Shown here: in pieces, positions 8,838 to 36,143 of the stretch | Layout: every line of letters starts with the position of its first letter | Numbering within the stretch: position 1 is the first letter of the stretch | Position numbers and translations under genes: made by a program | The notes under the pieces: generated by a model | Databases searched by the model: none | Told to the model about the DNA's origin: nothing | What the model saw: the letters and a program-made list of their open reading frames with translations, nothing else | Source: an uncultured Burkholderiales bacterium | GTDB taxonomy: Bacteria; Pseudomonadota; Gammaproteobacteria; Burkholderiales; Burkholderiaceae_C | Direction: 5' to 3' | NCBI GenBank assembly: GCA_903865035.1 | Contig: CAIPII010000162.1 | Coordinates: forward strand, 1-36,522 | DNA: 36,522 bases

Positions 8838-8844
8838 AAAAGGC

Positions 8845-16921: not shown

Positions 16922-19315
16922 ATGAAGAAGTCTAAGCAAGTGTTTAAGTTATCGCTATTGAGCGTTGCTTTGTTGGGAATGGGCTACTTGACGTCAGTCC
17001 AAGCTCAATCTTCTGCAACCAACGTCGGAACTGTCAAAATTTCTGGCGAGGGTGACTCATTGGGCAATGGCCTTTTGATCGATGAAGATGGTGTTAAAAA
17101 TAAAAGCACCGTGACCAAAGCCGCCATTGACAAAGAAAGGCCAACGGCCAACCCTTTTCAGCTCTTGAATTTGGAGCCTGGCGTTAACGCTTACAGCTAC
17201 GACGCAACAGGCCTCTTTGGTGGCAACATGCGTGTTCGTGGTTTCAACAGCGACGAGATGGGCTTCACAATCAATGGCGCTCCTGTGAACGATTCAGGTA
17301 ATTTTGCTGTTTACCCCCAAGAATACGCCGATGTCGAAAATTTGTGTGAAATCTCCATCACACAAGGCTCTGTCGACACAGAAGCTCCTCACGTTGGTGC
17401 CTCAGGTGGTAACGTGGGTATGGTGAGCTGCTCACCCAAAGACAAGTTTGGCGGTAAAGTGTCTATGTCCTTGGGTGACTTGTCATTCAAGCGCGGATAC
17501 ATGAGAGTCGATACAGGCTTGATCGGAACAGAGCATCCCTTTAAGGCCTACGCTTCCTACTCAAACGCTTCAGTTAACAAGTTCAAGGGTCCTGGTCAAG
17601 CCAACAAGGATCACGTGGACACAGGTTTTGATTGGAAGTTGACCGATGACACTTCCTTGAACACCAACCTCTTGTACAACTATCAGTTGAACAACAACTA
17701 TTTGACATTGACAAAGGCTGAGTTTGCACAAAATCCAAACTTGGACTTTTCTCCCAATGTTCCCCAGCATTTGACCAGCGGATCTGAGAGTGGAACCAAT
17801 TCCTTTGGAACAAGCAGCGCCACTGCTACAGGCGTTCGTGCACAAACGGCTTATGCTGGCTACTCACTCAATCCGTTTCAAAATTACTTGTTCACATCTA
17901 GACTCCAAAGTCGCATTGATGATGTCTTGACATTGAGTGCTGAGCCTTACTACTGGTATGGCTACGGTACAGGTGGAACTGAGCAAAACACGTTGACAGA
18001 AGGTACAACCGGATTTGCCGGTGGCATCAGTAACTTCACCACCAACGGCAACAACGGAACTGTGGTCGGCGTTTACAAGGGCTCTGTCACCGAGACCAAG
18101 CGTCCTGGCGTTACATTCAAAGCCAATTACAACCTTGACAACCAAAAGATCATGGCTGGATTGTGGCTCGAGCAAGCCAATCACCGTCAAACACAACCAG
18201 CAACCACAGTCACCAACGCCGGTGGCATTGGTGACTTGTGGCTTGCAACGGGTTTGATCACTTACAACAACGGCTCTTTGTACGAAGGCCGCAATTACTT
18301 GACTCAAAACGTAGCCTACTCAGCATTCTTGCAAGACACCATCACCATGGGTCAGCTTGATGTGAATGCTGGCATCCGCTACACATCGTTGAAGCGTGAT
18401 TTCACGAACTACGCATCAAGTGGTTCAGGCTTGGGAGCCAATTACACAGCATCTGCCACTTATGCCAAACCTTTGGCATCGATTGGTGCGCGCTACAAAT
18501 TCAACGAAGAGTTACAAGCTTATGGTAACGTTTCTCAAAACCAGAGAACACCCAGCAACTTCGTGTTGTCAGGTTGGGTAACCGGTGGAACGATTGTCAA
18601 CGGAGCATTGACTGGCTTCACATTGAATCCAAACACTGCGATTCAAGCTGAGACCTCCACCACGTATGAAGGTGGCATGCGCTTCAACAACGATAGCGTG
18701 AAGGGTTCAGTGGCCTTGTTTGATGTTGAATTCAAAAATCGCATTGCCTCTGGTTACAACCCAACCACAGCAACCACTACCGATTACAACGTGGGTGACT
18801 CACGCATGAAGGGTGTGGAGTTGCAGTTGGGTACAAAACCCGTTAAAGGTTGGAGTTTGTTTGGTTCAGCAACTTACACACAAAGCACAATCCTTAACAA
18901 CTACCCCGCAACATCAACAAGCACTTTGCCAACCTCAGGTGCGACTTTCCCTGACACACCTTTGTGGATGTACTCTGCTTCAGTGCAGTACGCCAGCGGA
19001 CCTTACATGGCTGCTTTGAACGGCAAATACACTGGCAAGCGTTACACAACACTCGTCAACGATGAGTATTTGGATGCTTACACAGTTTTTGACTTCAACG
19101 CAGGATACCGTTTCCCCTCAGGCACCTTCCTCAAAGAGCCAACAGTGCGCTTGAACATGTCTAACATCTTCAATGCCAAGTATTTGTTGGCCAATTCTGG
19201 AAGCGGATCAAGCATCACAACCACAGTCAACACCAGTGCAACTGGCGGCGGTATCCCAACTTACTACGTTGGTGCACCAAGGTTTGTGAGCGTTTCCTTC
19301 ACATCTGACTTCTGA
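16922..19315 (+). CDS. TonB-dependent outer-membrane receptor
   Basis: Outer-membrane gated channel of 797 aa. It has a signal peptide (MKKSKQVFKLSLLSVALLGMGYLTSVQAQ) and a TonB-box-like GTVKISG. A plug domain follows (NPFQLLNLEPGVNAYSYDATGLFGGNMRVRGFNSDEMGFTINGAPVN), and then a 22-strand-type barrel ending in phenylalanine (FVSVSFTSDF), the usual outer-membrane terminal signal. The plug contains a Cys pair (ENLCEISI and GMVSCSPK) that may form a disulfide. YAGAPRF-like YYVGAPRFVSV is typical of the last strands. The ATG has a strong site, TAGGAG. The receptor is flanked by its own TonB, ExbD and ExbB genes. The ligand is not readable from sequence; the PHO-like promoter would favour a phosphorus-containing compound, while the neighbourhood otherwise suggests organic acids. 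Confidence 0.92.
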   Translation: MKKSKQVFKLSLLSVALLGMGYLTSVQAQSSATNVGTVKISGEGDSLGNGLLIDEDGVKNKSTVTKAAIDKERPTANPFQLLNLEPGVNAYSYDATGLFGGNMRVRGFNSDEMGFTINGAPVNDSGNFAVYPQEYADVENLCEISITQGSVDTEAPHVGASGGNVGMVSCSPKDKFGGKVSMSLGDLSFKRGYMRVDTGLIGTEHPFKAYASYSNASVNKFKGPGQANKDHVDTGFDWKLTDDTSLNTNLLYNYQLNNNYLTLTKAEFAQNPNLDFSPNVPQHLTSGSESGTNSFGTSSATATGVRAQTAYAGYSLNPFQNYLFTSRLQSRIDDVLTLSAEPYYWYGYGTGGTEQNTLTEGTTGFAGGISNFTTNGNNGTVVGVYKGSVTETKRPGVTFKANYNLDNQKIMAGLWLEQANHRQTQPATTVTNAGGIGDLWLATGLITYNNGSLYEGRNYLTQNVAYSAFLQDTITMGQLDVNAGIRYTSLKRDFTNYASSGSGLGANYTASATYAKPLASIGARYKFNEELQAYGNVSQNQRTPSNFVLSGWVTGGTIVNGALTGFTLNPNTAIQAETSTTYEGGMRFNNDSVKGSVALFDVEFKNRIASGYNPTTATTTDYNVGDSRMKGVELQLGTKPVKGWSLFGSATYTQSTILNNYPATSTSTLPTSGATFPDTPLWMYSASVQYASGPYMAALNGKYTGKRYTTLVNDEYLDAYTVFDFNAGYRFPSGTFLKEPTVRLNMSNIFNAKYLLANSGSGSSITTTVNTSATGGGIPTYYVGAPRFVSVSFTSDF

Positions 19316-21247: not shown

Positions 21248-22390
21248 TTAGATGGTTTTCAGATTTGGCATGATGCGCAGGGCGTTCTCACGGTCAATGG
21301 CCATTCTCTCGGCTGGCGTGAAGTTTCTTGCAGCCAAACCCTCGCGCACATCAGAGGCTCTGCGGTAGGGGAAATCGCTGCCAAAGAGAATGTGTGAAGT
21401 CGGAATCAAGGCCCTCAATGCGGCAATCGCACCCTCGTGATGCCCTTGAGCGGTGTCGTAGTAGAAGTGCTGAACTTCTGCCAAGACCCCATTGGGCATG
21501 ACCTTTTTGGCCTCGTCTTTCATGTCAAACTCTTGCCTCGTAAAGCGACTCCAAAGGAACGGCATTGTGCCTCCACTGTGTGACCAAATCCAATTGATAT
21601 TGGGATATTTATTTGATGCACCACCAAACACCATGCTGGCAATCGTGCGAGTTGTGTCGGTGGCAAACTCAATGGCAGCGGGTGGGAGCCACTCGGCAAA
21701 TGGATTTTTACAGCAAGCCGCCAAGAGTGGGTGAACGTATATGGTTGCACGTCGTTTATTGAGTTCCTCCCAAATCGGCCAAAACCGCTTGTCGCCCAAA
21801 TATTTATCGCCATAGCTCGTCATCAGGCCAATGCCATCGGCTTTCAAGGTGTCCATTGCATACTCAATTTCTTTGAGACTGCCCTCTGTGTCCATGAGCG
21901 GCAATGTGGCAAAGGAGCCAAAGCGGCCCGGATAGTCTCTGGACATTTGAGCTGCGTACTCATTGGCTTCCCTGGCCAATCGTCGATCCAAATCTTTGTT
22001 GTTGAAGAATGCTCCGGGCTGCATCAAAGCAACCACTGAGGTTGCAATACCATTCATGTCCATTTCTTCAATGGACTTTTGGGGAGACCAAGGGGGAGCG
22101 CCAGAGCCGTCGAATTTTTTCAACTCTGCCAAATAATTGGGAGGACAGATGTGGTGGTGAATGTCAATGCGGTGTGGCTTGACCGGTGTGCTTTGAGCCA
22201 AAGCGCTCGATGATGCTCCTGGCGTTGCAAGAAGGCCTGTGCCTACACTGGCGAGTGAAGCCAGTGCTCCAACAGAGCCCAAGCCGGTTAAAAACCCGCG
22301 TCGACTTGCGTTGGGGCTCATGCATGGGTCAGTGGCTCCTGGATTGAGCAAAATTCCAGATTGATCGCAGCTGCAACGGTAGGGTTTCAT
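21248..22390 (-). CDS. Tat-exported amidohydrolase 2-family enzyme, probable decarboxylase
   Basis: Amidohydrolase-superfamily enzyme of 380 aa related to ACMSD, 6-methylsalicylate and gamma-resorcylate decarboxylases. The metal site looks complete: RIDIHHH (Asp76, His78, His80), IYVHP (His220), WIWSHSGG (His271) and LFGSDFPY (Asp339). It carries a twin-arginine signal (ASRRGFLTGLGSVGALASLASVG, Arg30-Arg31, cleavage near SALAQ), so the folded metalloenzyme should act in the periplasm, which is unusual for this family. The first 23 residues contain three Cys and look odd. ATG 22390 has AGGAG 10 nt upstream, while an ATG at 22321 (MSPNASRRGFL) is a credible alternative. It is the last gene of an operon behind a SnoaL-like gene and a TctC receptor. 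The substrate is unknown. Confidence 0.85.
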   Translation of the reverse strand: MKPYRCSCDQSGILLNPGATDPCMSPNASRRGFLTGLGSVGALASLASVGTGLLATPGASSSALAQSTPVKPHRIDIHHHICPPNYLAELKKFDGSGAPPWSPQKSIEEMDMNGIATSVVALMQPGAFFNNKDLDRRLAREANEYAAQMSRDYPGRFGSFATLPLMDTEGSLKEIEYAMDTLKADGIGLMTSYGDKYLGDKRFWPIWEELNKRRATIYVHPLLAACCKNPFAEWLPPAAIEFATDTTRTIASMVFGGASNKYPNINWIWSHSGGTMPFLWSRFTRQEFDMKDEAKKVMPNGVLAEVQHFYYDTAQGHHEGAIAALRALIPTSHILFGSDFPYRRASDVREGLAARNFTPAERMAIDRENALRIMPNLKTI

Positions 22391-24494: not shown

Positions 24495-24541
24495 GCAGGT
24501 GCTTGAAAGCGAGCCAACAAATAAGTCTATGAAGGATTGAC

Positions 24542-26545
24542 ATGAAAGACGAGCCCAAACAAGCCACCCCTTCGACTCCAAATTCAGCGCCCACTTTTGC
24601 CAGACGTCAGTTTTTGGGAAATGTGGTTGCTGGATCAGCTGCGGGTGTGGTCGCAGCCACAACGGGAGCGGCTGCAGCTGCAGCGGAGAGCACGCAAGAC
24701 GCCAAAAAGCCCTCTGCTTTACCCCCATCACTTAGAGGGATCGCCAATGAGTCGGGTGAAGTGCCCGATATGGGGCGTGTTGGGGGTGTTGCCGGCTCAG
24801 ACTTCATGGTCGATGTGATCAAGACCTTGGATATCAAATACACACCGACCAACTGTGCATCTAGTTTCAGAGCGATACACGAGTCTTTGATTGACTATGG
24901 ACAAAACACAGCACCAGAATACATCAGCTGCATGCACGAGGAGTCAGGTGTCGCCATGGCTCATGGCTACTTCAAGATTGCAGGCAAACCCCTCATGACC
25001 ATTTGCCATGGAACGGTTGGATTGATGCACGCCACCATGGGCATCTACAACGCTTGGTGTGACCGAGTTCCTGTCATCATCGTTGGAGGCAATGACACCG
25101 ACTCGGCCTACCGCCCTCCGATGGTGCCCACCTACCATGCTGCGCAAGACATCAATGCCATCGTTCGCGATTACACCAAGTGGGACGATGCTCCAGTTTC
25201 ATTGCAACATTTTGCCAATTCATTTGTCAGGGCCTACAAGGTCGCAATGACACCTCCTTATGGGCCCGTGGCCATTTCTCTTGACTTGGGGCTGCAGCAA
25301 GAGCCCGTGCATAAAAAGGGAGGAGTCCTTCCATCCATCCCACGCTACATTCCAAGCTCACCCCCACAAGGCGACAGTGGTGCGGTGCGTGAGGCAGCTC
25401 GCTTGCTCGTACAAGCGCAAAATCCATTGATCATTGCTGACCGATGTGCCAGAACGCCCAAGGGCATTGAGCTCTTGATTCAATTGGCCGAATTGCTGCA
25501 AGTTCAAGTGGTTGACCAAGGCAGTCGCATGAATTTTCCAAGAACCCATTACCTGAGCACCTCAGCGCAAGCGGTTGGACAAGCCGATGTTATTTTGGGG
25601 CTGGAGTTGTCTGATTTTTGGGGAACGGTGAACACCTACACCGATAACGGCGAATACGAAGGGGTGGGTACTCAAAGCTCTAAACTGCAGCCCCAAGCCA
25701 AGTTGATCAGCATCAATTCGGCAGACTTGATCACCAAAGCGAACTATCAAGATTTTCAAAAGTTTCAAGTCATTGACGTTCAAATGCCTGCTGACGCAGA
25801 GGCCACCTTGCCCGCCCTCATTGAGGCTGTGCGCCAAGCACTCACACCAGATAAAAAGGATGTCATTGCAAAAAGGGCAGAGCGTGCCAAGAAGGCTTTT
25901 GCTGCTGATTTTGCCAAAACACAAGCCGCAGCCGCTGTCGCTTGGAATGCAAGCCCCATCAGCACCGCACGCTTGGTCATGGAAACCTTCAACGCCATCA
26001 AACACCTGGACTGGTCACTGGTGGCATCTGAGGGCAATGTGAGCAATTGGCCCAATCGTTTGTGGCCCATGGAGAAAGCACACCATTGGATTGGTCGCTC
26101 TGGAGGTTTTGGTGTCGGTTATGGTGCTCCTGCATCTGTGGGTGCGGCACTGGCCAATCGCGATTTGGGACGTTTTTCTGTGAGCATTCAATCCGATGGG
26201 GACTTGATGTACGCGCCGGGTGTGCTTTGGACGGCAGCACATCACAAGATCCCCTTGTTATCGGTCATGCACAACAACAGAGGTTGGCACCAAGAGTTGA
26301 TGCACGTACAACGCATGGCGGATTTTAGAAATCGCCGTGTGAACTTGGGGCAAGACATGGGTCCCATTGGAACCAGCATCCAAAACCCAGATATTCAGTA
26401 CCACGAGTTGGCCAAATCCATGGGTTGGTGGGCCAAGGGCCCCATCACCCGTCCAGAGGACCTGGGGCCAGCGTTGAAGGAAGCGGTTGAAGTGGTGAAA
26501 TCCGGTCATCCCGCGTTGCTCAACGTGTGGACTCAACCGCGCTGA
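24542..26545 (+). CDS. Tat-exported thiamine diphosphate-dependent enzyme
   Basis: A 667-aa protein with the three-domain architecture of the acetolactate synthase/benzoylformate decarboxylase superfamily, but with an N-terminal twin-arginine signal (FARRQFLGNVVAGSAAGVVAA, Arg21-Arg22, Ala-rich h-region, cleavage near residue 48). The PYR domain carries the cofactor-activating Glu133 in MHEESGVAMAHGYFKIAGKP. The PP domain has the Mg/ThDP motif SDGDLMY (Asp552-Gly-Asp554) ending at HNNRGW (Asn578-Asn579). Both catalytic halves therefore look intact. It should cleave or form a C-C bond next to a carbonyl, for example 2-oxo acid decarboxylation, in the periplasm. It is 34 nt upstream of a cytochrome c gene, so an oxidative reaction feeding electrons to the cytochrome is possible. 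Ordinary cytoplasmic IlvB is ruled out by the Tat signal and lack of an IlvN partner. Confidence 0.85.
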   Translation: MKDEPKQATPSTPNSAPTFARRQFLGNVVAGSAAGVVAATTGAAAAAAESTQDAKKPSALPPSLRGIANESGEVPDMGRVGGVAGSDFMVDVIKTLDIKYTPTNCASSFRAIHESLIDYGQNTAPEYISCMHEESGVAMAHGYFKIAGKPLMTICHGTVGLMHATMGIYNAWCDRVPVIIVGGNDTDSAYRPPMVPTYHAAQDINAIVRDYTKWDDAPVSLQHFANSFVRAYKVAMTPPYGPVAISLDLGLQQEPVHKKGGVLPSIPRYIPSSPPQGDSGAVREAARLLVQAQNPLIIADRCARTPKGIELLIQLAELLQVQVVDQGSRMNFPRTHYLSTSAQAVGQADVILGLELSDFWGTVNTYTDNGEYEGVGTQSSKLQPQAKLISINSADLITKANYQDFQKFQVIDVQMPADAEATLPALIEAVRQALTPDKKDVIAKRAERAKKAFAADFAKTQAAAAVAWNASPISTARLVMETFNAIKHLDWSLVASEGNVSNWPNRLWPMEKAHHWIGRSGGFGVGYGAPASVGAALANRDLGRFSVSIQSDGDLMYAPGVLWTAAHHKIPLLSVMHNNRGWHQELMHVQRMADFRNRRVNLGQDMGPIGTSIQNPDIQYHELAKSMGWWAKGPITRPEDLGPALKEAVEVVKSGHPALLNVWTQPR

Positions 26546-26579
26546 TTCAACCCATTGGAAAAAAAAAGGACAACCCATC

Positions 26580-26990
26580 ATGTTGATACTCAATCGATCG
26601 ATCAGCCCAAGCAAAGCTTTGTTGCGAAACAAAAAGCCTGCAATTCGCTCATATGTTGCTTGTCTGAGCGCAAGCATCTTGCTCCTTTTCTCGACTCAAA
26701 ATTCGCTTGCAGCTTCTGCGGAAAAAGGGCGTGAAAATTTCATGAAAAATGGTTGCTGGCAATGTCACGGCACTTGGGGGCAAGGCGGCTCAGCTGGCTT
26801 GAAGCTTGCACCCAACCCCAAGCCACTTGCCTACATATCCGCTTTCATTCGCAACTCCAACGGCCCCATGCCGCCCTACACCACCAAAGTGTTGTCGGAG
26901 GAGGACTTGGGCGATATATACGCTTTTCTCCAATCCATTCCAGCCTCGCCCGACCCCAAAACCATTCCGCTGCTCAATGACTTGAAGTGA
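26580..26990 (+). CDS. periplasmic mono-heme c-type cytochrome
   Basis: Small class I cytochrome c, 136 aa. A signal peptide (hydrophobic SYVACLSASILLLFSTQNSLAASA, cleavage near residue 46) precedes AEKGRENFMKNGCWQCHGTWGQGG. The heme-attachment motif is CWQCH (Cys59, Cys62, His63). The likely distal ligand is Met97 in NSNGPMPPY, followed by LSEEDLGDIYAFLQSIP, which is typical of cytochromes acting as single-electron carriers for periplasmic dehydrogenases. The gene is 34 nt behind the Tat-exported ThDP enzyme with its own AAGGA site, so the two are co-transcribed. An electron-acceptor role for that enzyme is inferred. Confidence 0.9.
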   Translation: MLILNRSISPSKALLRNKKPAIRSYVACLSASILLLFSTQNSLAASAEKGRENFMKNGCWQCHGTWGQGGSAGLKLAPNPKPLAYISAFIRNSNGPMPPYTTKVLSEEDLGDIYAFLQSIPASPDPKTIPLLNDLK

Positions 26991-27016: not shown

Positions 27017-27067
27017 AAAAAACCTCTTGAGGCTTGAGCAATTTGTCTCAAGTCCTTCAAGAGGTTT
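27017..27067 (-). terminator. terminator of the long minus-strand operon
   Basis: AAACCTCTTGA/TCAAGAGGTTT (11 bp) encloses an inner stem CTTGAG/CTCAAG with an 8-nt loop. On the minus strand it ends in TTTTTT (27022-27017), so it closes the operon whose last gene is the UbiD-like gene. It has no comparable T-run for the convergent cytochrome gene. Confidence 0.8.
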
Positions 27068-27135: not shown

Positions 27136-28953
27136 TTAACGTTTGACTTTTTTGGCGGCTTTGGACGCAACCCCCTTTGCACCTGACTTGCTTTTTTGTG
27201 CACTCTTGGCTGATCGATGGGTTGAGGCTTGAGCCTTGAGTCCCTCTTCAAAGCTTTCCTCGATGTGGTGTTTGATCTCTGTGTTCATGGCCACATCGCG
27301 TCTTCTTTGTTTGGCGATTTCAGCGCCAGTGATGAAGTAATCGCTCTTGACTGCTCGTTTGGCCATGAGCTCATTGCGATCGCTCCAGTCGCCAAGTGAG
27401 TATCCAAACCAAGGCGCCTCGGGTTTCAATTCAGGCAGTTTGAGCTCTTGCCATATCGCCTTGGCATGCTCCATGTATTCGCGCTTGGGGAGCGCAATCG
27501 GTGGGAAGTTGTCCTTGAGGGTTGCATCGATCAATAGGGCAGCATCCTCTCCGTGGTTCCTTGGGCTTCTGGGTCCGTGCCCTGGATCGCGGTGGTGCAG
27601 CACTTGCATGTCGAGTGCAAAGTTGGCCCTGTAGCTCATGGCCCAAAGCAGTGCGTCTGCATTGTCTGGATCAATGTCATCGTTGATTGCAATGACAAAT
27701 TTACCGCCCGAGCGCAGCAAAGAGGACGCCCCGTAGAGCGCTCTCCAAACCTCAGTGGGCGGGGTTTTTCGATCGACGACCACGGCAATGACTTTGCGCA
27801 AATTGGTGAGCGGTTCATGCATGGACACGCGCAGCACACCCTTGATGCCCAAGTTGCGCTTCAAGTGGTTGGTGAAAACAGGCTCAAGGGCAACGCGCTT
27901 GATCAAGCTCGACTCTGATGGAGTGACCTGAGAGATGATGGAGGTCAGAATTGCTTTTTTGCGCCGCGTGATGGCCGTGACCTCCATGTAGGCATTGAAC
28001 TCTTGCAAGTTCACGTGTCCATGGGACTCGCCAAAGGGTGCTTCGGGTTCAAGCCACTCTGTCGAGATGAAGCCTTCAATCACGATCTCCGCCTCCGCTG
28101 GCACCATGAGATCGACCGTTTTGCACTTCACCACATTGATGGGTTCGCCCACCAAGCCACCAGCCACATCCAACTCATCGGTGTCTTCGGAGAGTTTTTG
28201 CACCGATGTGAAGGCCACACTGGGTGGGCAGCCCAAAATCACTGCTGCGGGCAGTTTTTGGCCTTTGGCCTTGGCTTTTTCCCAGTGCGTGTAAATGCCA
28301 GGTTGGTTCTCCAGTGATGGATTCATCCCCAAGCGTGTGGGTGACTTCACCTGGCCACGGTACACGCCCATGTTTTGTATCCCAGTTTCGGGATCTTTGG
28401 TGATGTATTGCGAGAGCGTGGTGTAAGGTGCGTTGTCCCAGCCAGGAGAGGAGATGGGAACAGGAATGCCATCCAAGCCTTGACCCGGCTTTAAAAGATC
28501 TTTGCCCATGTAGACAATCTCTTGGCAGGGAGCTTCTTTGACCAAATTGGGTTTGATGGGATGAGAGATGGCATGGTTCCAAGTCTTGCCAATGTCTTCG
28601 ATTTTGCAGTTCATGCCAATGCTGTAGATCTCGCGATTTGCTGCCAAAGCACCCACCACGACTGGGATGTCATATTGGTGACCTTTGGAGTCGGTCACAT
28701 TGGTGAACAAGAAGGCCTTGCGATTGGGCTCGGTGATGCCGCCCCTGAATTGCCACCTCACCAAGGGATGCATTTCTGTGTCTTTGTTGATCTTTCGATC
28801 AATGGTGACCAAGAGACCCGCCTCATCCAAAGCCTTCAAGTGCTCGTGCAAGTCTGCATAAGAGCGCGCGTTGGTGGAGGAAGGTTGACTTGATGTTTCG
28901 GCGTTCACTTTTTTCGTTTTTGCAGTGGCCTTTGAAGTGGGTGTTTTTTTCAT
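27136..28953 (-). CDS. UbiD-family prenylated-FMN decarboxylase with basic tails
   Basis: Non-oxidative (de)carboxylase of the UbiD family, 605 aa, longer than the usual 450-510. Metal and prFMN-site residues are visible: Asn194 and Arg199 in QNMGVYRGQV, His223 in THWEK, Glu270 in LVGEP, and Glu304/Glu309 in EPEAPFGESHGHV, matching the catalytic Arg-Glu-Glu set of Fdc1. Extra length comes from a Lys/Thr/Ser-rich N-terminus (MKKTPTSKATAKTKKVN) and a Lys/Ala-rich, histone-H1-like C-terminus (SAKSAQKSKSGAKGVASKAAKKVKR). It should decarboxylate an aromatic, heteroaromatic or unsaturated acid in the cytoplasm. It is last in the operon, with AGGA 8 nt before the ATG. No UbiX prenyltransferase gene is in the window. 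Confidence 0.9.
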   Translation of the reverse strand: MKKTPTSKATAKTKKVNAETSSQPSSTNARSYADLHEHLKALDEAGLLVTIDRKINKDTEMHPLVRWQFRGGITEPNRKAFLFTNVTDSKGHQYDIPVVVGALAANREIYSIGMNCKIEDIGKTWNHAISHPIKPNLVKEAPCQEIVYMGKDLLKPGQGLDGIPVPISSPGWDNAPYTTLSQYITKDPETGIQNMGVYRGQVKSPTRLGMNPSLENQPGIYTHWEKAKAKGQKLPAAVILGCPPSVAFTSVQKLSEDTDELDVAGGLVGEPINVVKCKTVDLMVPAEAEIVIEGFISTEWLEPEAPFGESHGHVNLQEFNAYMEVTAITRRKKAILTSIISQVTPSESSLIKRVALEPVFTNHLKRNLGIKGVLRVSMHEPLTNLRKVIAVVVDRKTPPTEVWRALYGASSLLRSGGKFVIAINDDIDPDNADALLWAMSYRANFALDMQVLHHRDPGHGPRSPRNHGEDAALLIDATLKDNFPPIALPKREYMEHAKAIWQELKLPELKPEAPWFGYSLGDWSDRNELMAKRAVKSDYFITGAEIAKQRRRDVAMNTEIKHHIEESFEEGLKAQASTHRSAKSAQKSKSGAKGVASKAAKKVKR

Positions 28954-29018
28954 GAGGAGGGTCCTGAGTTTTTAAAATTGAATTGGTGTTTCAAGCGGGG
29001 TCATTTGGTTGGCTTGGA

Positions 29019-30158
29019 TCACTTGGGCACTTTGGTCACCGTTTGTTCGTATAGGCGGGTCCACTTGGCATAGTTGTCGATGATGAAGACGGGATCCACC
29101 ACATTGATCTTGAGATTGGGATAATTGTTGGGCACCTTGGTGCTGATCGTGTAGTAGTTCAGCTGTGCCAGCAACTTTTGGGTCTCAGCCGAGAGCAAGT
29201 AGTCGTAAAAGAGCAGTGCGGCATAAGGGTGTTGGGCATTTTTATACACCCCCATGTTAAAACCTTGTGCGACCACTGGATCCAGCGCAAACCAATCGAC
29301 GGGTTTACCTGCTTTTTTGTCCTTTTCAGGTAAATCAATGTAGACCGTAAGCCCCATGGGAACTTCGCCAGCGACCACCAAGTTGTGCAGCAAAGAAACG
29401 CCCAAACGAGTGGAGATGCCGTTTTTGCTCACAATGTCTTTGAAGGTGCTGATGCCTTTTTCCTCGCCCATGGTGGTCACCACTTTGGAGAACCATTCTT
29501 CGGCCTTGGTCTCGATGCCCAAATTGCCCTTCCACCTGGGATCAGACAAATCGGACCATTGCTTGGGTAAATTCTCAACCTTGATCAAGTTGGTGTTGTA
29601 GCTTTGAACCATGACATTGAACACAAAGGAGCTCCACTGGTGGTGGTCGGGCAAAGCCGTGGCGATCATGTCTTTGAAGTAGGGGGAGTAAACCGGTTGC
29701 AACAAATGCTCTTTATAAAGCGCGTACATCTCACTGGCCGGTGTCATGATCAAGTCCACCTCTTGGTGTTTTGAGCTGGCCTCCCTCACCACGCGTTGCA
29801 GCACATTGTCTGAGCCCGATCTCCAATACTTCACCTTGATGCCGGTTTGGCGCTCAAAGGGTGCAATGATGAGCGGCATGTCTTGTGGTCTAAAGGCTGT
29901 GTAGATGCTCAGCACGCCTTCCTCTTTGGCCTTTTGAGCCACTCGTTCAGCCCGATCAGCCTTGTCGTTGAGCAAATCTGCGCCAGTCTGCGCGTTGGCC
30001 ACTTGAAGGCAAAGACCCAATAGCAAAGTGCTACACAGTCGCAGAACAGTTGAGCGGTTCAATTTCAACTGATAAAGCGCCTTGTCAATCTTCCAAGGTC
30101 CATGGGCTGAAGGGTTGCTGGATAAAACAAGTGGTCTTGAGGTGTTCATCTGAGGCAT
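29019..30158 (-). CDS. ABC-type extracellular solute-binding protein (Fe3+/AfuA-like fold)
   Basis: Periplasmic binding protein of family 1/AfuA type, 379 aa from the first ATG. The fold signature is clear: AKEEGVLSIYTAFRPQDMPLIIAPFERQTGIKVKYWRSGSDNVLQRVVREASSKHQEVDLIMTP, LPKQWSDLSDPRWKGNLGIE, and QHPYAALLFYDYLLSAETQKLLA. The N-terminus to 30158 gives an unusually long hydrophilic leader. A TTG at 30068 would start MKLNRSTVLRLCSTLLLGLCLQVANA, a textbook signal peptide, and may be the true start. There are no ABC permease or ATPase genes next to it, so it is an orphan receptor inside a catabolic operon. The family binds Fe3+, but also phosphonates, polyamines and organic acids; an organic ligand fits the context better. 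Confidence 0.85.
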   Translation of the reverse strand: MPQMNTSRPLVLSSNPSAHGPWKIDKALYQLKLNRSTVLRLCSTLLLGLCLQVANAQTGADLLNDKADRAERVAQKAKEEGVLSIYTAFRPQDMPLIIAPFERQTGIKVKYWRSGSDNVLQRVVREASSKHQEVDLIMTPASEMYALYKEHLLQPVYSPYFKDMIATALPDHHQWSSFVFNVMVQSYNTNLIKVENLPKQWSDLSDPRWKGNLGIETKAEEWFSKVVTTMGEEKGISTFKDIVSKNGISTRLGVSLLHNLVVAGEVPMGLTVYIDLPEKDKKAGKPVDWFALDPVVAQGFNMGVYKNAQHPYAALLFYDYLLSAETQKLLAQLNYYTISTKVPNNYPNLKINVVDPVFIIDNYAKWTRLYEQTVTKVPK

Positions 30159-30258
30159 TTTGAGGTTGGGTTCAATCTAAGGCATGAAGCGCATTCAATG
30201 GCGCAATGCGAGCAAGGCAGGCGTCAAGGGCAGAAGTTCAAATCGTGAACTGGATGCT

Positions 30259-31266
30259 TCATTCTTTTTCGATGTGGCTTTTCTTGACCACATCTCCCCA
30301 GTAGGCAAACTCACTCTTCAAATATTGTTGCGCCTCCTCAGGCGAGGTGCTGAACCTGGGTTGCAGGCCAAGGCCCAAGAGTTTGCTCTCCATCTCTGGG
30401 GTGGAGACGATGCTCATGAGAGTGCTGTAGAGCAATTGAATGCGCGCTTTTGGGGTGCCTGCAGGCAAAAGCAGCATGAGCCACGTCACTGCTGTGAAAT
30501 CCGACATCCCTTGCTCTTTGAAGGTGGGCACCTGTGCAAAAAGACCCGCCAACCTTTTGGCGCTTCCCGTGGCGATGGGCCTCAGGCGCCCAGACTCCAC
30601 ATGTGGCCTCACCGTCGATGCGGTCTCAAGCGCCATGGATACATTGCCAGCAATCACATCAGAGAGCCCAGCCACACTGCCCTTGTAGGGGATGTGGGTG
30701 ATGTCAAGACCCAATCTTCTTTTGAGTTCTTCCATGGCCAAATGTGAAACCGTGCCATTTCCTGATGAGGCGTTGGTGAGTGGTGCGGGCGCTGTTTTGG
30801 CGACTTGGCTCAAATCCTTTAAGTTTTGAATGGGTAAATTGGGGTTCACGCACAGTACAAAAGGCAAATCGCCCACCAAACCAACCGCATCAAAATCTCT
30901 CAAAGTATCGTAATTGACCGCGTTGTAAATGTGCGGGTTGGTCTCGAGCGCAGACATGTGCGCCATCATCATCACAGAGCCGTTTGGAGGCGCCTTGGCG
31001 AGCAATCCCAAAGCAAGGGAGCCGCCTTGTCCAGGACGGTTGTCGATGATGATGCTCTCTGAGAGTTGAGTCGACATCTTCTCCGCAATCACCCGAGTCA
31101 CCATGTCTGTGGCTTGTCCTGGTGGAAAGCCAACCATCAATTTGACAACTTTGTTGCCCGTCGTCACCAGGCTTTGTGCCTGTGCTGTGTTGGCAAAACT
31201 TGAGGCCGCGACAAGTCCAATGGAGGACTGGATAAAAAAGTCGCGGCGATGGATGGGGCTGTTCAT
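30259..31266 (-). CDS. Bug/TctC-family solute-binding protein with Tat-like signal
   Basis: Periplasmic receptor of 335 aa. Its signal peptide contains a twin arginine (HRRDFFIQSSIGLVAASSFANTAQA), so export by Tat rather than Sec is plausible. Mature-domain signatures are VVKLMVGFPPGQATDMVTRVIAEKM, IIDNRPGQGGSLALG, NYDTLRDFDAVGLVGD, THIPYKGSVAGLSDVIAGNVSMALE and VPTFKEQGMSDFTAVTWLML. It lies in the Mo-hydroxylase/UbiD operon, 81 nt after the CoxG-like gene and 100 nt before a second solute-binding protein gene. Two receptors of different families in one operon suggest uptake of the pathway substrate or of two related compounds. Confidence 0.9.
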   Translation of the reverse strand: MNSPIHRRDFFIQSSIGLVAASSFANTAQAQSLVTTGNKVVKLMVGFPPGQATDMVTRVIAEKMSTQLSESIIIDNRPGQGGSLALGLLAKAPPNGSVMMMAHMSALETNPHIYNAVNYDTLRDFDAVGLVGDLPFVLCVNPNLPIQNLKDLSQVAKTAPAPLTNASSGNGTVSHLAMEELKRRLGLDITHIPYKGSVAGLSDVIAGNVSMALETASTVRPHVESGRLRPIATGSAKRLAGLFAQVPTFKEQGMSDFTAVTWLMLLLPAGTPKARIQLLYSTLMSIVSTPEMESKLLGLGLQPRFSTSPEEAQQYLKSEFAYWGDVVKKSHIEKE

Positions 31267-31347
31267 GAAAGTCTGTCTCCTTTTGCTTTATTTTTGAAAT
31301 TCAGCGGGGAACTCTGTCGGCTCCCTTGTGCTCATCAACGCGATGGA

Positions 31348-32016
31348 TCAATACATCCAACGAGCGGTGGTGATTGCAATGAGTGCGCCAAGCACACAAG
31401 CGGGAGCCAACCACCATGCCGGGACCATGGGTGTGCTGTGTGCAGGGTGTGCGGCTTGCGTTGCGGGTAATGACTGGCTTTGTGCACTTGGGGTCTGTGC
31501 GTTTGCAGCCTCTGGTGCAGCGTGCAAAGGGTTTGCGCTCGCAATGCTTGCGGCTTTGGCACTGACTTTGATTGGGTCAGGGTTGAGTTGCTCTTGAAAG
31601 GCTTTGAAGAAATCGTCGGTCATTTTCTTGGCCACACTGTCAATGAGCCTGGAGCCCACTTGCGCCAATTTACCGCCAACTTGCGCTTTGGCTTCATAAG
31701 ACAACTCAGTGCCTTGCGCAGTTTGAACCAATTTGACTTTGGAGGAGCCTTTGCCAAAGCCAACCGCTCCACCTTGACCTTCAAATTGCATGACGCAAGA
31801 CTCTGGGGCATTGACGTCCTCCATTTTGAGCGAGCCTTGAAAGCGTGCCCGAAGTGGACCAATTGCGGTTTTGATGGTGACTTTGAAATCGGTGTCTGAG
31901 AGTTTGTCCACGCTCTCACACCCAGGCAAGCAGGCTTTCAAAATTTCGGGGTCATTCAATGCTCTCCAGACCAACTCTCTGGGAGATGGGATTAATTTGG
32001 TGCCGATGATTTCCAT
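31348..32016 (-). CDS. CoxG-like SRPBCC protein with C-terminal membrane anchor
   Basis: CoxG/carbon monoxide dehydrogenase subunit G family protein, 222 aa. The first 150 residues form the SRPBCC domain (MEIIGTKLIPSPRELVWRALNDPEILKACLPGCESVDKLSDTDFKVTIKTAIGPLRARFQG, then GSSKVKLVQTAQGTELSYEAKAQVGGKLAQVGSRLIDSVAKKM). A Pro/Ala/Gln-rich linker leads to one C-terminal transmembrane helix, WWLAPACVLGALIAITTARWMY. In CO dehydrogenase operons CoxG anchors the enzyme at the cytoplasmic membrane. The neighbouring molybdenum hydroxylase could be tethered in the same way. It is separated from the crotonase gene by 98 nt and precedes the TctC gene. Confidence 0.88.
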   Translation of the reverse strand: MEIIGTKLIPSPRELVWRALNDPEILKACLPGCESVDKLSDTDFKVTIKTAIGPLRARFQGSLKMEDVNAPESCVMQFEGQGGAVGFGKGSSKVKLVQTAQGTELSYEAKAQVGGKLAQVGSRLIDSVAKKMTDDFFKAFQEQLNPDPIKVSAKAASIASANPLHAAPEAANAQTPSAQSQSLPATQAAHPAHSTPMVPAWWLAPACVLGALIAITTARWMY

Positions 32017-32114
32017 GATGGGTGCTCTTTAAATGGGAGTCTATTGGGAGGGGGAGAGAAAACCCTGTGCGAGCCTTTTGAACATCGCACAAGGTCAATG
32101 AAGAAGACCTGTGC

Positions 32115-32846
32115 TCAATGTGCCTTTTTCTTCATCTCTGCAGCCGTGTTGACCATGGAGTGCAGGCTTCTTGCGTAATCGATAGCACCTTGTTCGTCCA
32201 TTTTTGGGGCCACGCGTAAATATTCTTTGAGTCCCAATATTGCAGGTCTTGGTCGTGAGAGGAGCAACTCGCAGAAACGCTCAACTTCGTGGTCCACTTG
32301 CTCGTGCGCCACCACTTGGTTCACGATGCCAAAAGACAGCGCGCGGTGAGCATCGATGAAGTCGGCTGAGTAAGCCATCCAAAGAATCGCATTGCGGTTC
32401 ATGCGGTCATAAAGGGCAGACATCACCATGGTGGGCATTACATTGTGCGCAATCTCTGGGATGTTAAAGGTGGCCTGGTCGCTGGCAAAGGAGACGTCGC
32501 AAAGGGAGGCGACAGCTGTGCCGTAACCCATCACACGGCCTTTGAGAACGCCAATGACTGGCACTTGACAAGCCCTCAGCGCTTTGTAGCTGTTGAAGAT
32601 GGAATCGTACTCAGCTCTGCGTGTATAAGCCTCTGGTGATGGGGGGTGAGCTGCATCGCGCACACGACCAGTGCAGAAATCAGGTCCGGTGCTTGAGAGC
32701 ACCACTGCGTCAGAGGTTTCGTGTGCGCTCATGACCGCTTTGCTCAGTGCGGCTGCCATGCTGTCAGACACGCCATTGTCTTCGGGGCGATTGAATTGAA
32801 TTCTTAATAGACGGCCATCTTGTTTGATGATCAGGTGTTCACTCAT
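32115..32846 (-). CDS. enoyl-CoA hydratase/isomerase (crotonase) family protein
   Basis: Crotonase-fold protein of 243 aa, within the usual 240-270. Family landmarks are IQFNRPEDNGVSDSMAAALSKAVMSAHE, VVLSSTGPDFCTGR, VIGVLKGRVMGYGTAVASLCDVSFASDQATFNIPEIAHNVMPTM and FGIVNQVVAHEQVDHEV. The first oxyanion-hole motif departs from the common CAGADL (here CTGRVRD), and the GG of the usual ALGGG is YGTA. It acts on a CoA thioester in the cytoplasm: hydration, isomerisation or thioester hydrolysis are all possible. It overlaps the alpha/beta-hydrolase gene by 4 nt, so the two are translationally coupled. No CoA ligase is encoded in the window. Confidence 0.85.
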   Translation of the reverse strand: MSEHLIIKQDGRLLRIQFNRPEDNGVSDSMAAALSKAVMSAHETSDAVVLSSTGPDFCTGRVRDAAHPPSPEAYTRRAEYDSIFNSYKALRACQVPVIGVLKGRVMGYGTAVASLCDVSFASDQATFNIPEIAHNVMPTMVMSALYDRMNRNAILWMAYSADFIDAHRALSFGIVNQVVAHEQVDHEVERFCELLLSRPRPAILGLKEYLRVAPKMDEQGAIDYARSLHSMVNTAAEMKKKAH

Positions 32847-33670
32847 GATTGACTCCAGAGAGGGTTTTGAAAAAAGTGTCGCATCAAGGCTGCATTGAAA
32901 GCGCTTGGGTTGTCGATGTTGGGCAGGTGGCCTGAGTTTGCAATCACCTCAAGCTTGGCGCCTGGGATCAAGCCTTGCAGGGCTTTGTTGGCCTCAGGCA
33001 ATGGGCCGTCGTTGGCGCCCACCAAAAGCGTTGTGGGCACCGAGATCGTGTGAGCTTGGGACAAGAAGTCCAAGCCTTGAATGGCCCTTGCACAGCCACA
33101 AAACCCCTGCACCGAGGTGTTGGCAATGGTGTCGCAAAATGCGTTTTGCACCTCTGGGTGCGCTTGGGTGAAGGCCTCTCCAAACCACCTCAGTGTGGTT
33201 GGAACAGCAAGAGCTTGGGTGCCTTCTTTTTGAGCCAATTCAATGCGCTCGTCCCAAGGCTGGCCAGCCGCGCCTGGCATGTCTGCTCGCCCATCGCACA
33301 ACAACAGGCTTAGCAAACGAGAGCCGAACTGTGCGCCCAAACCAAAGCCACTCATGGAGCCCAAAGAGAGCCCAATGTAGTGAGCGCGCTCAATGTCTAA
33401 GCCATCTAGGATGCTGATGTGATCGTTCACCAAGTCTTGCATGGTGTAGGGGCCCATTGGTGCGCTCGATGCGCCGTGTCCTCTTGTGTCAGCACAAATC
33501 ACCCGAAAGCCACAAGCGGCGAGCAAATGGGCTTGCTCCACCCACATCATGCTGGAGCTCAAAATCGAGTGGGCCATCAAGACCGCAGGCCCACTTGGGT
33601 CTCCCAAAGTGTGAATGGCCAAATCCACATTGGGTGTGCAAATGATTTGCGTCTCGAAGTCTTGATTCAT
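32843..33670 (-). CDS. alpha/beta hydrolase, 3-oxoadipate enol-lactonase-like
   Basis: Serine hydrolase of 275 aa. The nucleophile elbow is GLSLGS (Ser102), the oxyanion region is LMAHSILSSSMMWVEQ, ADTRGHGASS follows strand 4, and the catalytic His lies in VIANSGHLPNIDNPSAF. LCDGRADMPGAAGQPWDERI resembles the cap region of PcaD-like enol-lactonases. The start at 33670 is chosen because AAGGA (33683-33679) lies 8 nt upstream. A longer frame to 33754 would overlap the Mo-hydroxylase gene and adds a low-complexity leader. It probably hydrolyses a lactone, ester or ring-cleavage product. It is followed directly by the crotonase gene, with a 4-nt overlap. Confidence 0.85.
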   Translation of the reverse strand: MNQDFETQIICTPNVDLAIHTLGDPSGPAVLMAHSILSSSMMWVEQAHLLAACGFRVICADTRGHGASSAPMGPYTMQDLVNDHISILDGLDIERAHYIGLSLGSMSGFGLGAQFGSRLLSLLLCDGRADMPGAAGQPWDERIELAQKEGTQALAVPTTLRWFGEAFTQAHPEVQNAFCDTIANTSVQGFCGCARAIQGLDFLSQAHTISVPTTLLVGANDGPLPEANKALQGLIPGAKLEVIANSGHLPNIDNPSAFNAALMRHFFQNPLWSQS

Positions 33671-33678
33671 GTTCAACG

Positions 33679-33683
33679 TCCTT
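33679..33683 (-). promoter_or_regulatory. ribosome binding site AAGGA deciding the hydrolase start
   Basis: On the minus strand AAGGA is followed by 8 nt and then the ATG at 33670. It lies in the 58-nt gap after the Mo-hydroxylase stop and supports the shorter hydrolase. Confidence 0.7.
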
Positions 33684-33728
33684 GGGCTTTGTGTGGTGGT
33701 AGGGGCAAGCGGTGCATCAAGCGCTGCA

Positions 33729-36143
33729 TCATGCGCTTTTGGATGTGCTTGCACACGCTTGCCACAAGGCTTGTGGTGTCATGGGCAAGTGGTCAATGTG
33801 AGCGCCAACAGTTGACAAAGCATCATTGATGGCAGAAGCCATGGCGGCAGGGGAACCCAAGTAGCCGGCTTCGCCCGAGCCTTTTTGGCCAAACTCGGTC
33901 AAAGGAGAGGGTGTGCAGTGGTCCACGATGGTGATCTCTGGCACTTCATGCGCGGAGGGCAACAAATAGTCCATGAAGGTGCCTGCCAAGAGTTGTCCGT
34001 CCTCAGAATAAGCAAACTTCTCCATGAGCGCAGCACCCAAGCCATGCGCAATGCCACCATAGGTCATCCCATGAACGACGTCTGGAGAAATCATGACGCC
34101 GCAGTCGTGGCCGCACACGTAGCGGTGGATGTGCACTTTGAAGGTGCCAGGATCGATGCTGGCCAAAATCACATGCGACTCAAAGGAGTGGCAAGGGTAC
34201 ATTTGAATGCGCCCCTCAGCCGTTGGGAGTCCTCCACCCGTGGGCACCTCCCAGACGAACTTCTCTTGCAGGCCGGGCTCCATGCCGCTTGGCAACAAGT
34301 GGTATTTGCGGTGCATGATCTCAATCAAAGCGGCCCACGAGAGCGATTGGCTTGGATCACTTGCCACGTGAATGGCGCCTCCTTCATAGATCAACTCCTC
34401 CTCACGCACCTTCAAGTGGTGGGCGGCAAGCTTCATGAGCTTTTGTTTGATTTTTTTGGCAGCCCCTGCCGCTGCACCGCCCAGCATGATGGCCATGCGA
34501 GAGCCCACAGGGCTGTTGGAGGGCAGTGCGTTCAGAGAATCCGCCTTGAGCACACGAATGCTCTCGGGGTCGCGGTCCAAGACTTCGGCCACCACCGTGG
34601 AGACAAGTGTTTCATGCGACTGACCGGATGAGGATGTGCCCATCAAGGCCGTCACCGAACCCGACAAGTCCACCCTCACCAAACAAGAATCCATCCAAGT
34701 GGTGGTGTCGTTTTTGGGGTTGAAGAGGGGCTCAAAGGAGGAGTTTCCACCAGAGGGCTCCAAGCATGTGGAAAAACCGATGCCCGCCAAAATGCCTTGC
34801 TCTCTTAAGCGATCACGCTTGGCGATGAGCTCCTCAATGTTCGCCTCCTTCAGCGCTTTGTCAAACACAACCGCGTAATCTCCCGAGTCATAATGCGTGC
34901 CACTTGGAATGAGGTAGGGGAATTGGTCGGGGGCGATCAAATTGCGTTTTCTCAGCGCAATGCGGTCCATTTGAAGAAAGCGCGCGACTTTGTCAATGCC
35001 TGTCTCAATGGCGTAATTGGTTGGGGCTTGCCCAAATCCACGAACCGCCTCTTGAGGGGTTTTGTTCGTCATCACCGCCATGGCATCGTAGGCGACACTG
35101 TGAATGGTGTAGGGGCCCACGATCGCACCAACGGGTTTGCCCAGTTGCAGAGGAGACCTTCCAGAATAAGCACCGATGTCATCCAAGGCGCGCATTTTCA
35201 TGCACTTGATTTCGCCATCTGGCTCAAACCCCAAGGTCACATCAAAGATGCGATCTGGGCCTTGCATGTCGCCACCGCGCATGTTCTCCAATCGGTCTTC
35301 CACCAAGCGCACAGGGCGTCCGAGTTTTTTGGCCAAATAGGCCACCAAGATCGTGTGCTTGAGGCCTCGCTTGACGCCATAGCTGCCTCCCACGTCTACA
35401 TCAAAGTGAACCCGCACGGCGTTCCCCGGCAAGCGCAAAGCTTTGGCCACTTGGTCGGGGAACTTGGGCATTTGAATCGATGCCCAAACATCCAGCACCC
35501 CTTGCGCATCGCTCCACTCACATGCCACCGCAAAAGTCTCAATGGGCACAGTTGAGTTGCGAGCCCATTTGACGCGGTAACTCAGTTGGTGCGTGCAAGC
35601 GGCCATTTCTTTGTCGACTTCACCCCAAACAAAGTGGCGATGAAAGATCACGTTGGAGCCGTGCTTGGGGTGAACCAAAGGAGCGCTCGGTAAAAGTGCC
35701 TCCTCGGGGTCCACCACGTGGGGCAAGACTTCATATTCAATGTTGACCCACTCGGCTGCATCTTCGGCCAAAGCGCGAGAGGTGGCCACCACAGCGGCAA
35801 CCCACTCACCTGCATAGCGCGCGTGTGAACCCGCCAAAGGATAACGCGTCACCTGCGGCGCATCAACGCCAGGAAGTGTTGCGTCCACATTGGCCCACAA
35901 TTCCTCACCGCACAGCACATCGACCACGCCTGGCATCTCCAGCGCAGCCTTTGAGTCGATGGATAAAATTTTTGCGCTTGCATAGGGACTCGATATCAAG
36001 GCCACGTGGAGCATGCCTGGGCGCTGAATGTCAGCTGCAAAGTGACCTTGGCCCAGCACAAAGCGTTGGTGCTCAACGGCTCTTCTGTGTTTGCCAATGT
36101 ATTTGAAAGGTTTGGCGTTGGGGAGGACTTGCTTAGCGGACAT
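33729..36143 (-). CDS. molybdenum hydroxylase large subunit (xanthine dehydrogenase/CoxL family)
   Basis: Molybdopterin-cytosine-dinucleotide-binding catalytic subunit, 804 aa, a normal length. Features: YIGKHRRAVEHQRFVLGQGHFAADI at the N-terminus, the Mo-cofactor regions DVDVGGSYGVKRGLKHTILVAYLAKKLGRPVRLVEDR and GTSSSGQSHETLVSTVVAEVLD, and the catalytic base Glu758 in GQKGSGEAGYLGSPAA. The loop that defines CO dehydrogenase form I (AYxCSFR) reads EAVRGFGQ here, so it is not a CO dehydrogenase. It should hydroxylate an aromatic N-heterocycle, furan-type CoA ester or aldehyde using water as oxygen source. It overlaps the 2Fe-2S subunit gene by 11 nt. The FAD subunit gene is not in the window and may lie upstream. 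Confidence 0.92.
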   Translation of the reverse strand: MSAKQVLPNAKPFKYIGKHRRAVEHQRFVLGQGHFAADIQRPGMLHVALISSPYASAKILSIDSKAALEMPGVVDVLCGEELWANVDATLPGVDAPQVTRYPLAGSHARYAGEWVAAVVATSRALAEDAAEWVNIEYEVLPHVVDPEEALLPSAPLVHPKHGSNVIFHRHFVWGEVDKEMAACTHQLSYRVKWARNSTVPIETFAVACEWSDAQGVLDVWASIQMPKFPDQVAKALRLPGNAVRVHFDVDVGGSYGVKRGLKHTILVAYLAKKLGRPVRLVEDRLENMRGGDMQGPDRIFDVTLGFEPDGEIKCMKMRALDDIGAYSGRSPLQLGKPVGAIVGPYTIHSVAYDAMAVMTNKTPQEAVRGFGQAPTNYAIETGIDKVARFLQMDRIALRKRNLIAPDQFPYLIPSGTHYDSGDYAVVFDKALKEANIEELIAKRDRLREQGILAGIGFSTCLEPSGGNSSFEPLFNPKNDTTTWMDSCLVRVDLSGSVTALMGTSSSGQSHETLVSTVVAEVLDRDPESIRVLKADSLNALPSNSPVGSRMAIMLGGAAAGAAKKIKQKLMKLAAHHLKVREEELIYEGGAIHVASDPSQSLSWAALIEIMHRKYHLLPSGMEPGLQEKFVWEVPTGGGLPTAEGRIQMYPCHSFESHVILASIDPGTFKVHIHRYVCGHDCGVMISPDVVHGMTYGGIAHGLGAALMEKFAYSEDGQLLAGTFMDYLLPSAHEVPEITIVDHCTPSPLTEFGQKGSGEAGYLGSPAAMASAINDALSTVGAHIDHLPMTPQALWQACASTSKSA

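Follow-up and report, generated by a model that had tools for sequence, protein, structure and literature searches.

Can a bacterium carry out thiamine diphosphate (ThDP)-dependent oxidation outside its cytoplasm and pass the electrons to a cytochrome c? This question is raised by two adjacent genes in the window, which is the whole 36,522-nucleotide stretch of DNA analysed here (contig CAIPII010000162.1 of assembly GCA_903865035.1, from an uncultured Burkholderiales bacterium). The first gene encodes a ThDP enzyme with a twin-arginine translocation (Tat) leader, and the second encodes a small cytochrome c. ThDP enzymes are generally regarded as catalysts of the cytoplasm or of organelles, and the earlier note on this DNA proposed that the pair may carry out oxidative decarboxylation or C-C cleavage, with the electrons going to the respiratory chain. 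The leader, the intact cofactor motifs, and a conserved pairing are evident in the sequences that we compared, and we favor, with modest confidence, the interpretation that the enzyme is an extracytoplasmic ThDP-dependent dehydrogenase, probably acting on (aryl) 2-oxo acids, and that the cytochrome serves as its dedicated electron acceptor. Taken together, our results suggest an undescribed respiratory oxidation of organic acids outside the cytoplasm.

The ThDP enzyme gene and its cytochrome c neighbor

The window enzyme and its close relatives are called type A below. The features of the two genes are as follows.

24532..24536, + strand: Shine-Dalgarno-like AAGGA, 5 nt 5' of the ThDP enzyme ATG (direct reading)
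24542..26545, + strand: type-A ThDP enzyme gene, 667 amino acids, Tat leader, benzoylformate-decarboxylase-like predicted fold (open reading frame, Pfam, fold model)
24542..24676, + strand: twin-arginine leader, residues ~1-45, R21-R22-Q-F-L and then Ala-rich (motif, conservation, codon bias)
24938..24940, + strand: Glu133, catalytic Glu position (alignment)
25007..25009, + strand: His156, matching His70 of benzoylformate decarboxylase (alignment)
26192..26203, + strand: SDGD (residues 551-554), Mg/diphosphate motif (alignment)
26273..26278, + strand: Asn578-Asn579, end of the ThDP-binding motif (alignment)
26566..26570, + strand: Shine-Dalgarno-like AAGGA of the cytochrome gene, within the intergenic gap 26546-26579 (direct reading)
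26580..26990, + strand: partner cytochrome c, 136 amino acids, signal peptide, CBB3/class-I-like, single CxxCH (open reading frame, Pfam)
26754..26768, + strand: CWQCH haem-binding motif, residues 59-63 (direct reading)
27020..27067, + strand: 11-bp inverted repeat, arms 27020-27030 and 27057-27067, possible transcript end (by eye)

The ATG of the ThDP enzyme is the first in its frame after a stop at 24530-24532, the frame opening just three codons earlier, and the protein scores above the cut-off for each of the Pfam TPP_enzyme N, M, and C domains. The cytochrome reading frame features a hydrophobic leader, the CWQCH motif, and a Pfam Cytochrome_CBB3 match above the cut-off; its Met97, a candidate Met ligand, is invariant in a six-sequence alignment. 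The earlier note described the ThDP enzyme as co-transcribed with a CWQCH cytochrome bearing a signal peptide. The two genes lie on the same strand and are separated by 34 bp, and a terminator scan reported no terminator-like site within this gap. The inverted repeat beyond the cytochrome gene has a loop that exceeds the limit of that scan and is absent from its list.

The ThDP enzyme is a predicted Tat substrate

Type-A relatives were drawn from one genome per species (GTDB) using search patterns placed outside the leader, and the best 79 of 547 stretches encoding a relative were taken (L019-L097); more distant members, beyond the best ~80 of the 547, may behave differently. With L014, two copies from plasmids (L015 of Caballeronia and L016 of Novosphingobium, the latter at 41% identity), and the window itself, these loci form a set of 83, with type-A identities of 41-97%. 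Loci L009-L013 were left out of the counts because their records recur among L019-L097, as were four rows of the wider homologue listing that lacked a locus; four of the eight plasmid records were taken, the remainder being four Sinorhizobium records at 30-36% identity. No two fetched loci have identical last 300 residues, and the pairs L025/L026, L041/L042, L039/L040, and L019/window are very close, with L019, from an uncultured Burkholderiales bacterium, being the closest relative of the window enzyme (97% identity). Common ancestry links the loci, and some nearly duplicate one another, so the locus counts below are given as raw numbers and do not represent independent events.

The leader of the window enzyme reads ...FARRQFLGNVVAGSAAGVVAATTGAAAAAAES, with RRQFL at residues 21-25 and an Ala-rich stretch next. 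The twin-arginine (RR) motif, defined as RR.[FLM][LIMVF], is present in 82/82 type-A loci with an intact N-terminus (window included; L051, which is cut at a contig end, was left out), and all eight further type-A paralogues, at identities of at least 43%, also encode it, compared with 0.4% of shuffled leaders. Over residues 1-60, 36 of the 50 nucleotide differences between the window and L019 fall at third codon positions, which indicates that the leader is translated. Residues 1-56 of the predicted structure have a predicted local distance difference test (pLDDT) score below 50, and TatC is encoded in the same genome (G000:C167; 227.8 bits against a cut-off of 25.1). The motif, the hydrophobic stretch after it, its conservation, and the presence of TatC make the assignment of the enzyme as a Tat substrate a well-supported prediction. 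The earlier note, which had identified the twin-arginine signal, named homologues that generally lack it and a mis-called start as grounds for doubt. The relatives do not bear out the first concern, and the second is ruled out by the third-position bias within the leader together with the RR motif conserved in relatives.

The cytochrome gene is the conserved partner of type-A enzymes

Using a cytochrome model built from six partner sequences, we found a matching cytochrome whose haem motif is no more than 600 bp away from the enzyme gene at 80/83 type-A loci, compared with 2/205 background blocks elsewhere in the same loci subjected to the same test; six of the 83 loci match necessarily, since the model was made from them or from their duplicates. 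The cytochrome lies downstream in all 80 paired loci and on the same strand in 78, with a median distance of 141 bp from the enzyme stop to the haem codons, and eight of the paired cytochromes contain a second CxxCH. For L074, just 179 bp of downstream sequence is available, in which the haem motif is still visible. At the two loci with inverted orientation, L014 and L095, the cytochrome adjoins the enzyme gene nonetheless, and we count the survival of adjacency through inversion in favor of a dehydrogenase-cytochrome relationship. A CxxCH gene also stands alongside seven of the eight further paralogues. One stretch of a single genome (G762:C1:118232-125308) contains three tandem type-A paralogues (L107, L114, and L128), each with an adjoining cytochrome gene.

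The cytochrome is the only true neighbor family common to most loci (79/83), followed by the TctC receptor (24/83); these counts, which disregard an artefactual family antisense to the enzyme gene, are lower bounds, as many flanks are short. With the cytochrome as the sole conserved neighbor, no separate dehydrogenase is conserved beside the type-A enzymes among the neighbor families of the 83 loci. The difference between the loci and the background blocks rules out a chance neighbor, and the joint conservation of the Tat signal and the adjacent cytochrome, which the earlier note had put forward as a check, is what the relatives display. Taken together, we conclude that the export signal and the cytochrome pairing are well supported at the level of sequence.

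These results also bear on the possibility that the Tat-like leader is non-functional, such that the enzyme is cytoplasmic and the cytochrome a chance or passive neighbor. We give this possibility almost no weight, because the leader is coding, TatC is present, the RR motif conserved throughout the type-A relatives occurs in 0/19 cousins that lack the cytochrome, and the pairing at 80/83 loci versus 2/205 blocks is repeated in a second family, type B, described below.

Catalytic residues and fold of the ThDP enzyme

The window enzyme has the catalytic Glu and the Asp...Asn Mg/ThDP motif of the ThDP enzyme superfamily (decarboxylase, benzoylformate decarboxylase, or acetohydroxyacid synthase [AHAS] type). 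Glu133 aligns with a Glu position, which we take to be catalytic, in benzaldehyde lyase and in proteins resembling benzoylformate decarboxylase, and it is Glu in 58/59 aligned type-A enzymes; L031 (9986-11974) is the sole member of the 59 with Asp. D552, G553, and D554 are invariant (59/59), and N579 is present in 58/58 of the aligned enzymes having that position. The earlier note had reported intact Glu133 and GDG...NN motifs, of which Glu133 and Asn-Asn stand, and the putative GDG is actually SDG (551-553), with a first residue that is variable in the family. His156 is likewise invariant (59/59) and aligns with active-site His70 of benzoylformate decarboxylase, and no conserved His is found in the column of its His281, where the HMMER alignment is of low confidence. 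Intact catalytic residues in the window enzyme are strongly supported.

The nearest kind of fold depends on the program. VIA-align of the predicted fold ranked benzoylformate decarboxylases first, with AHAS rows 1-2 Z lower, whereas Foldseek, ordered by E-value, placed BbmA, glyoxylate carboligase, and benzaldehyde lyase on top and the M. smegmatis benzoylformate decarboxylase 4q9d fifth. Benzaldehyde lyase and formolase were among the best matches in a sequence search, and a profile search ranked benzoylformate decarboxylases first. Among the NCBIfam matches listed (25 of 46), the enzyme falls below the cut-off of every model; its top match was to PRK08327 ('thiamine pyrophosphate-requiring protein'), at 201 bits against a cut-off of 456.

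The Foldseek list, on which formolase joins BbmA, glyoxylate carboligase, and benzaldehyde lyase near the top, and the sequence matches to benzaldehyde lyase and formolase are consistent with an exported ThDP carboligase or acyloin-cleaving enzyme, in which case the cytochrome would oxidise the resulting enediol or acyloin, for instance when diaryl compounds derived from lignin or humus are degraded. Genes for UbiD, Mo-hydroxylase, and transport receptors near the window pair and some relatives would fit such a role, but VIA-align and the profile search rank benzoylformate decarboxylases first and the neighbors vary between clades, so that they do not point to a substrate. We regard this alternative as improbable.

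Reading a substrate from the neighbors in general fails, since besides the cytochrome no family occurs in more than 24/83 loci. UbiD and Mo-hydroxylase genes accompany a minority of loci (9 and 10, respectively) in two widely separated regions of the tree, standing beside type A in L024, L026, and L027 and again in L066, L073, and L092. Within the window, genes for UbiD, a solute-binding protein, TctC, CoxG, enoyl-CoA hydratase, an alpha/beta hydrolase, and the Mo-hydroxylase large subunit occupy 27136-36143 (- strand). On the other side of the pair, 21248-22390 (- strand) encodes a PF04909 amidohydrolase with its own Tat-like leader, SRRGFLTGLGSVGALASLAS..., from a family found in 16/83 type-A neighborhoods, and 16922-19315 (+ strand), upstream of the region, encodes a TonB-dependent receptor.

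A second family of Tat-leader ThDP enzymes is paired with cytochromes

The source genome encodes a type-B ThDP enzyme (L003/L132, G000:C52) that is 24-27% identical to the window enzyme and whose leader in L132 is MRDLVGQYLSKSISRRGFLDN. The features of L132 are as follows.

7685-8026: upstream small cytochrome c
7685-10353: region with the type-B Tat-ThDP enzyme between two cytochromes
10021-10353: downstream small cytochrome c

In a set of 21 type-B loci, from which the repeats L143, L145, and L155 were dropped, the leader motif [ST]RRx[FL] is present in 21/21; the stricter pattern misses L151, L152, and L153. A cytochrome is adjacent in 18/21 (14 upstream, 10 downstream, 6 both). The upstream cytochrome of L132 is SorB-like at most, matching the SorB model weakly (25 bits against an NCBIfam cut-off of 93), and the dihaem cytochrome of L137 scores above the cut-off for PF09098, the quinohaemoprotein amine dehydrogenase haem domain; the cytochromes of L138 and L154 matched no Pfam family. 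Because SorB and the amine dehydrogenase haem domain represent families that accept electrons from a catalytic partner, we count these matches toward the dehydrogenase interpretation, and the idea of electron transfer gains strength from the existence of another, only distantly related family in which a Tat-ThDP enzyme is paired with a cytochrome. The PoxB entry 3eya appears among the fold matches of the type-B model only. As a separate observation, the type-B enzyme of L144 (G796:C95:7438-9312) has one in-frame TGA inside the match, which may reflect an error in the frame or in the sequence.

Type B was found in 3/300 genomes of the order, all three of which are type-A positive; the other four type-A genomes of the order are not among the type-B matches, with their presence in the 300-genome draw not established. 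In 39 type-A genomes (those of 40 loci, less L031), type B is present in 17, at 61-84% identity in 13 and at 35-38% in four. These observations lead us to propose, tentatively and as something short of probable, that extracytoplasmic ThDP redox enzymes form a class put together on at least two occasions, from different ThDP lineages and different cytochromes, which would oxidise 2-oxo acids or acyloins outside the cytoplasm by flavin-free transfer of electrons from a ThDP carbanion to haem c.

Non-exported relatives and distribution of type A

We also examined 19 non-exported homologues, of which 13 came from homologue searches, four from the source genome, and two from plasmid copies; three genes are held twice, which leaves 16 distinct cousins. 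The RR motif is found in 0/19, and an open reading frame with CxxCH lies within 600 bp in 0/19, with less than 600 bp available on one side for L002, L006, L007, L121, and L127. Because 'non-exported' was defined by the absence of RR, only the cytochrome result is an independent test. These sister enzymes (~29-39% identity; for example, L002/L133 of the source genome and L017 of Salipiger) share the ThDP core with type A and differ from it in lacking both the RR leader and the cytochrome. An aldehyde dehydrogenase gene is located 42-311 bp away in 7/16 distinct cousins (L133 included), and L017 also has an alpha-hydroxy-acid oxidase and a tripartite tricarboxylate transporter nearby. At L133 (233-3534, - strand), in the same genome as the window, the cousin stands directly beside an aldehyde dehydrogenase and a TctC-like receptor. 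From this gene order we infer a cytosolic route in the cousins that converts a 2-hydroxy acid, by way of the 2-oxo acid and the aldehyde, into an acid and uses nicotinamide adenine dinucleotide (NAD) as the sink, and an exported counterpart in which the aldehyde dehydrogenase would be swapped for the cytochrome.

In a tree of 113 rows, the 90 exported type-A rows form one side of a single branch with SH-aLRT (Shimodaira-Hasegawa-like approximate likelihood ratio test) support of 98. Types A and B stand apart, the non-exported rows are closer to type A, and two label changes are needed. The type-A family is patchy and rare in draws of genomes: 7/399 genomes in an even draw of the order (the source genome included) match type A at an E-value of 1e-120 or better, and 4/397 genomes in a draw of the phylum match at 1e-50, the exported kind being only the window's own. 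According to record titles, the best 79 loci include Pseudomonadota and Acidobacteriota, and type-A carriers are mostly uncultured bins, with a few named isolates or plasmids (L015, L016, and L046).

Oxidative versus non-oxidative chemistry

The chief rival explanation is an exported non-oxidative ThDP decarboxylase or lyase that would release an aldehyde into the periplasm, with the cytochrome serving a separate aldehyde or alcohol dehydrogenase encoded elsewhere or acting as an indirect carrier. Several observations weigh against the dehydrogenase interpretation, and some of them favor this rival. The closest fold in VIA-align is benzoylformate decarboxylase, which is non-oxidative and flavin-free, and one of its active-site His residues (His156) is kept. 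At L020-L022, whose enzymes are 77-78% identical to the window enzyme, an aldehyde dehydrogenase gene lies 407-510 bp away, which fits aldehyde release, as do the aldehyde dehydrogenases beside the cousins and the alpha-hydroxy-acid oxidase at L017. An adjacent cytochrome is missing at L069, L091, and L096 (3/83 type-A loci), whose genomes have another type-A copy with a haem gene alongside (L122; L117 and L123; L104, respectively), and at the type-B loci L148, L152, and L153. The further paralogue L116 (G771:C10:103345-105231) has an RR leader and no CxxCH gene within 600 bp; its genome also contains the unpaired L069 and the paired L122. Moreover, the conservation of the operon across relatives partly reflects common descent, and although parsimony favors two separate origins of the pairing, these are not proven, and the deep branches of the tree are weak.

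The neighborhoods argue in the other direction: the cytochrome alone is conserved as a partner, with no conserved dehydrogenase, and L020-L022 are the only three of 82 type-A loci with an aldehyde dehydrogenase within 1.5 kb. In addition, some type-B cytochromes resemble the partners of catalytic subunits. We therefore consider the exported non-oxidative enzyme unlikely, though it deserves serious attention, and retain the ThDP-dependent dehydrogenase with its own cytochrome as the preferred interpretation.

Proposed mechanism

In the proposed mechanism, the ThDP enzyme would fold and bind ThDP and Mg2+ in the cytoplasm before export through Tat, and the cytochrome would be exported through Sec and receive its haem outside. 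Within the periplasm, ThDP would attack a 2-oxo acid, most likely an aromatic or heteroaromatic one as in benzoylformate, or would alternatively cleave an acyloin, either route yielding a carbanion/enamine. The partner haem would then oxidise this intermediate directly in two one-electron steps, for which the cytochrome might dock twice or the dihaem variant might accept both electrons. Hydrolysis of the resulting 2-acyl-ThDP would release a carboxylic acid, and the electrons would enter the cytochrome c pool. The logic would be that of pyruvate:ferredoxin oxidoreductase or PoxB, with cytochrome c replacing iron-sulfur (Fe-S) clusters or quinone and the reaction placed outside the cytoplasm, as if the NAD-linked aldehyde oxidation of the cousins had been replaced by a cytochrome c.

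If this mechanism is correct, respiration would gain electrons without substrate import, NAD, or coenzyme A (CoA), which would represent an added entry point to the respiratory chain and a form of ThDP-to-haem electron transfer that did not turn up in the literature searches made for it. The enzyme would also be a Tat cargo that requires its cofactor to be loaded before export. Such systems may explain unaccounted organic-acid oxidation in uncultured lineages. Because the operon is small, with two genes, and a few named isolates and plasmids carry type A, the idea is directly testable.

Comparison with known systems

Among the hits of full-text searches aimed at this question, which did not extend to most subscription journals, no title or opening of an abstract described an exported ThDP enzyme or a ThDP-cytochrome c pair. 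The window system shares parts of its organization with several known ones. The window enzyme is 18-24% identical in VIA-align to benzoylformate decarboxylase (MdlC type; 1bfd, 4q9d) and scores 143 bits against a cut-off of 493 for the corresponding equivalog model, PRK07092. Unlike benzoylformate decarboxylase, it has a Tat leader, a partner cytochrome, and a variable first residue in the GDG motif.

PoxB is a cytoplasmic peripheral-membrane flavin adenine dinucleotide (FAD) enzyme that reduces quinone. The ThDP-dependent oxidation of 2-oxo acids feeding the respiratory chain, as in PoxB and pyruvate:quinone oxidoreductase, is the logic proposed here; unlike PoxB, the window system has a Tat leader and a cytochrome c. 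In VIA-align, the predicted fold of the enzyme is closest to flavin-free benzoylformate decarboxylase, followed by AHAS rows 1-2 Z lower. The 2-oxoacid:ferredoxin oxidoreductases are cytoplasmic, contain Fe-S clusters, and depend on CoA. In published accounts, flavin-free electron transfer from ThDP intermediates is described for these oxidoreductases, which resemble the proposed system in oxidising the intermediate by single electrons with an external carrier protein (PMC5020499), and for 1-deoxy-D-xylulose 5-phosphate (DXP) synthase (PMC11908136). The window enzyme has no Fe-S domain by Pfam, with TPP_enzyme domains alone matched at an E-value of 0.001.

Catalytic subunits with their own cytochrome c are found in SorAB, SorT/SorU, and quinohaemoprotein amine dehydrogenase, and one account describes the catalytic protein of SorAB and of SorT/SorU passing electrons to the cytochrome (PMC4760952). 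The catalytic cofactor differs, being Mo (molybdenum) or quinone in the SorAB-type and amine dehydrogenase pairs and ThDP in the window enzyme. ThDP redox enzymes are known, and as far as literature searches show, what would be new in the window system is its location and its electron acceptor.

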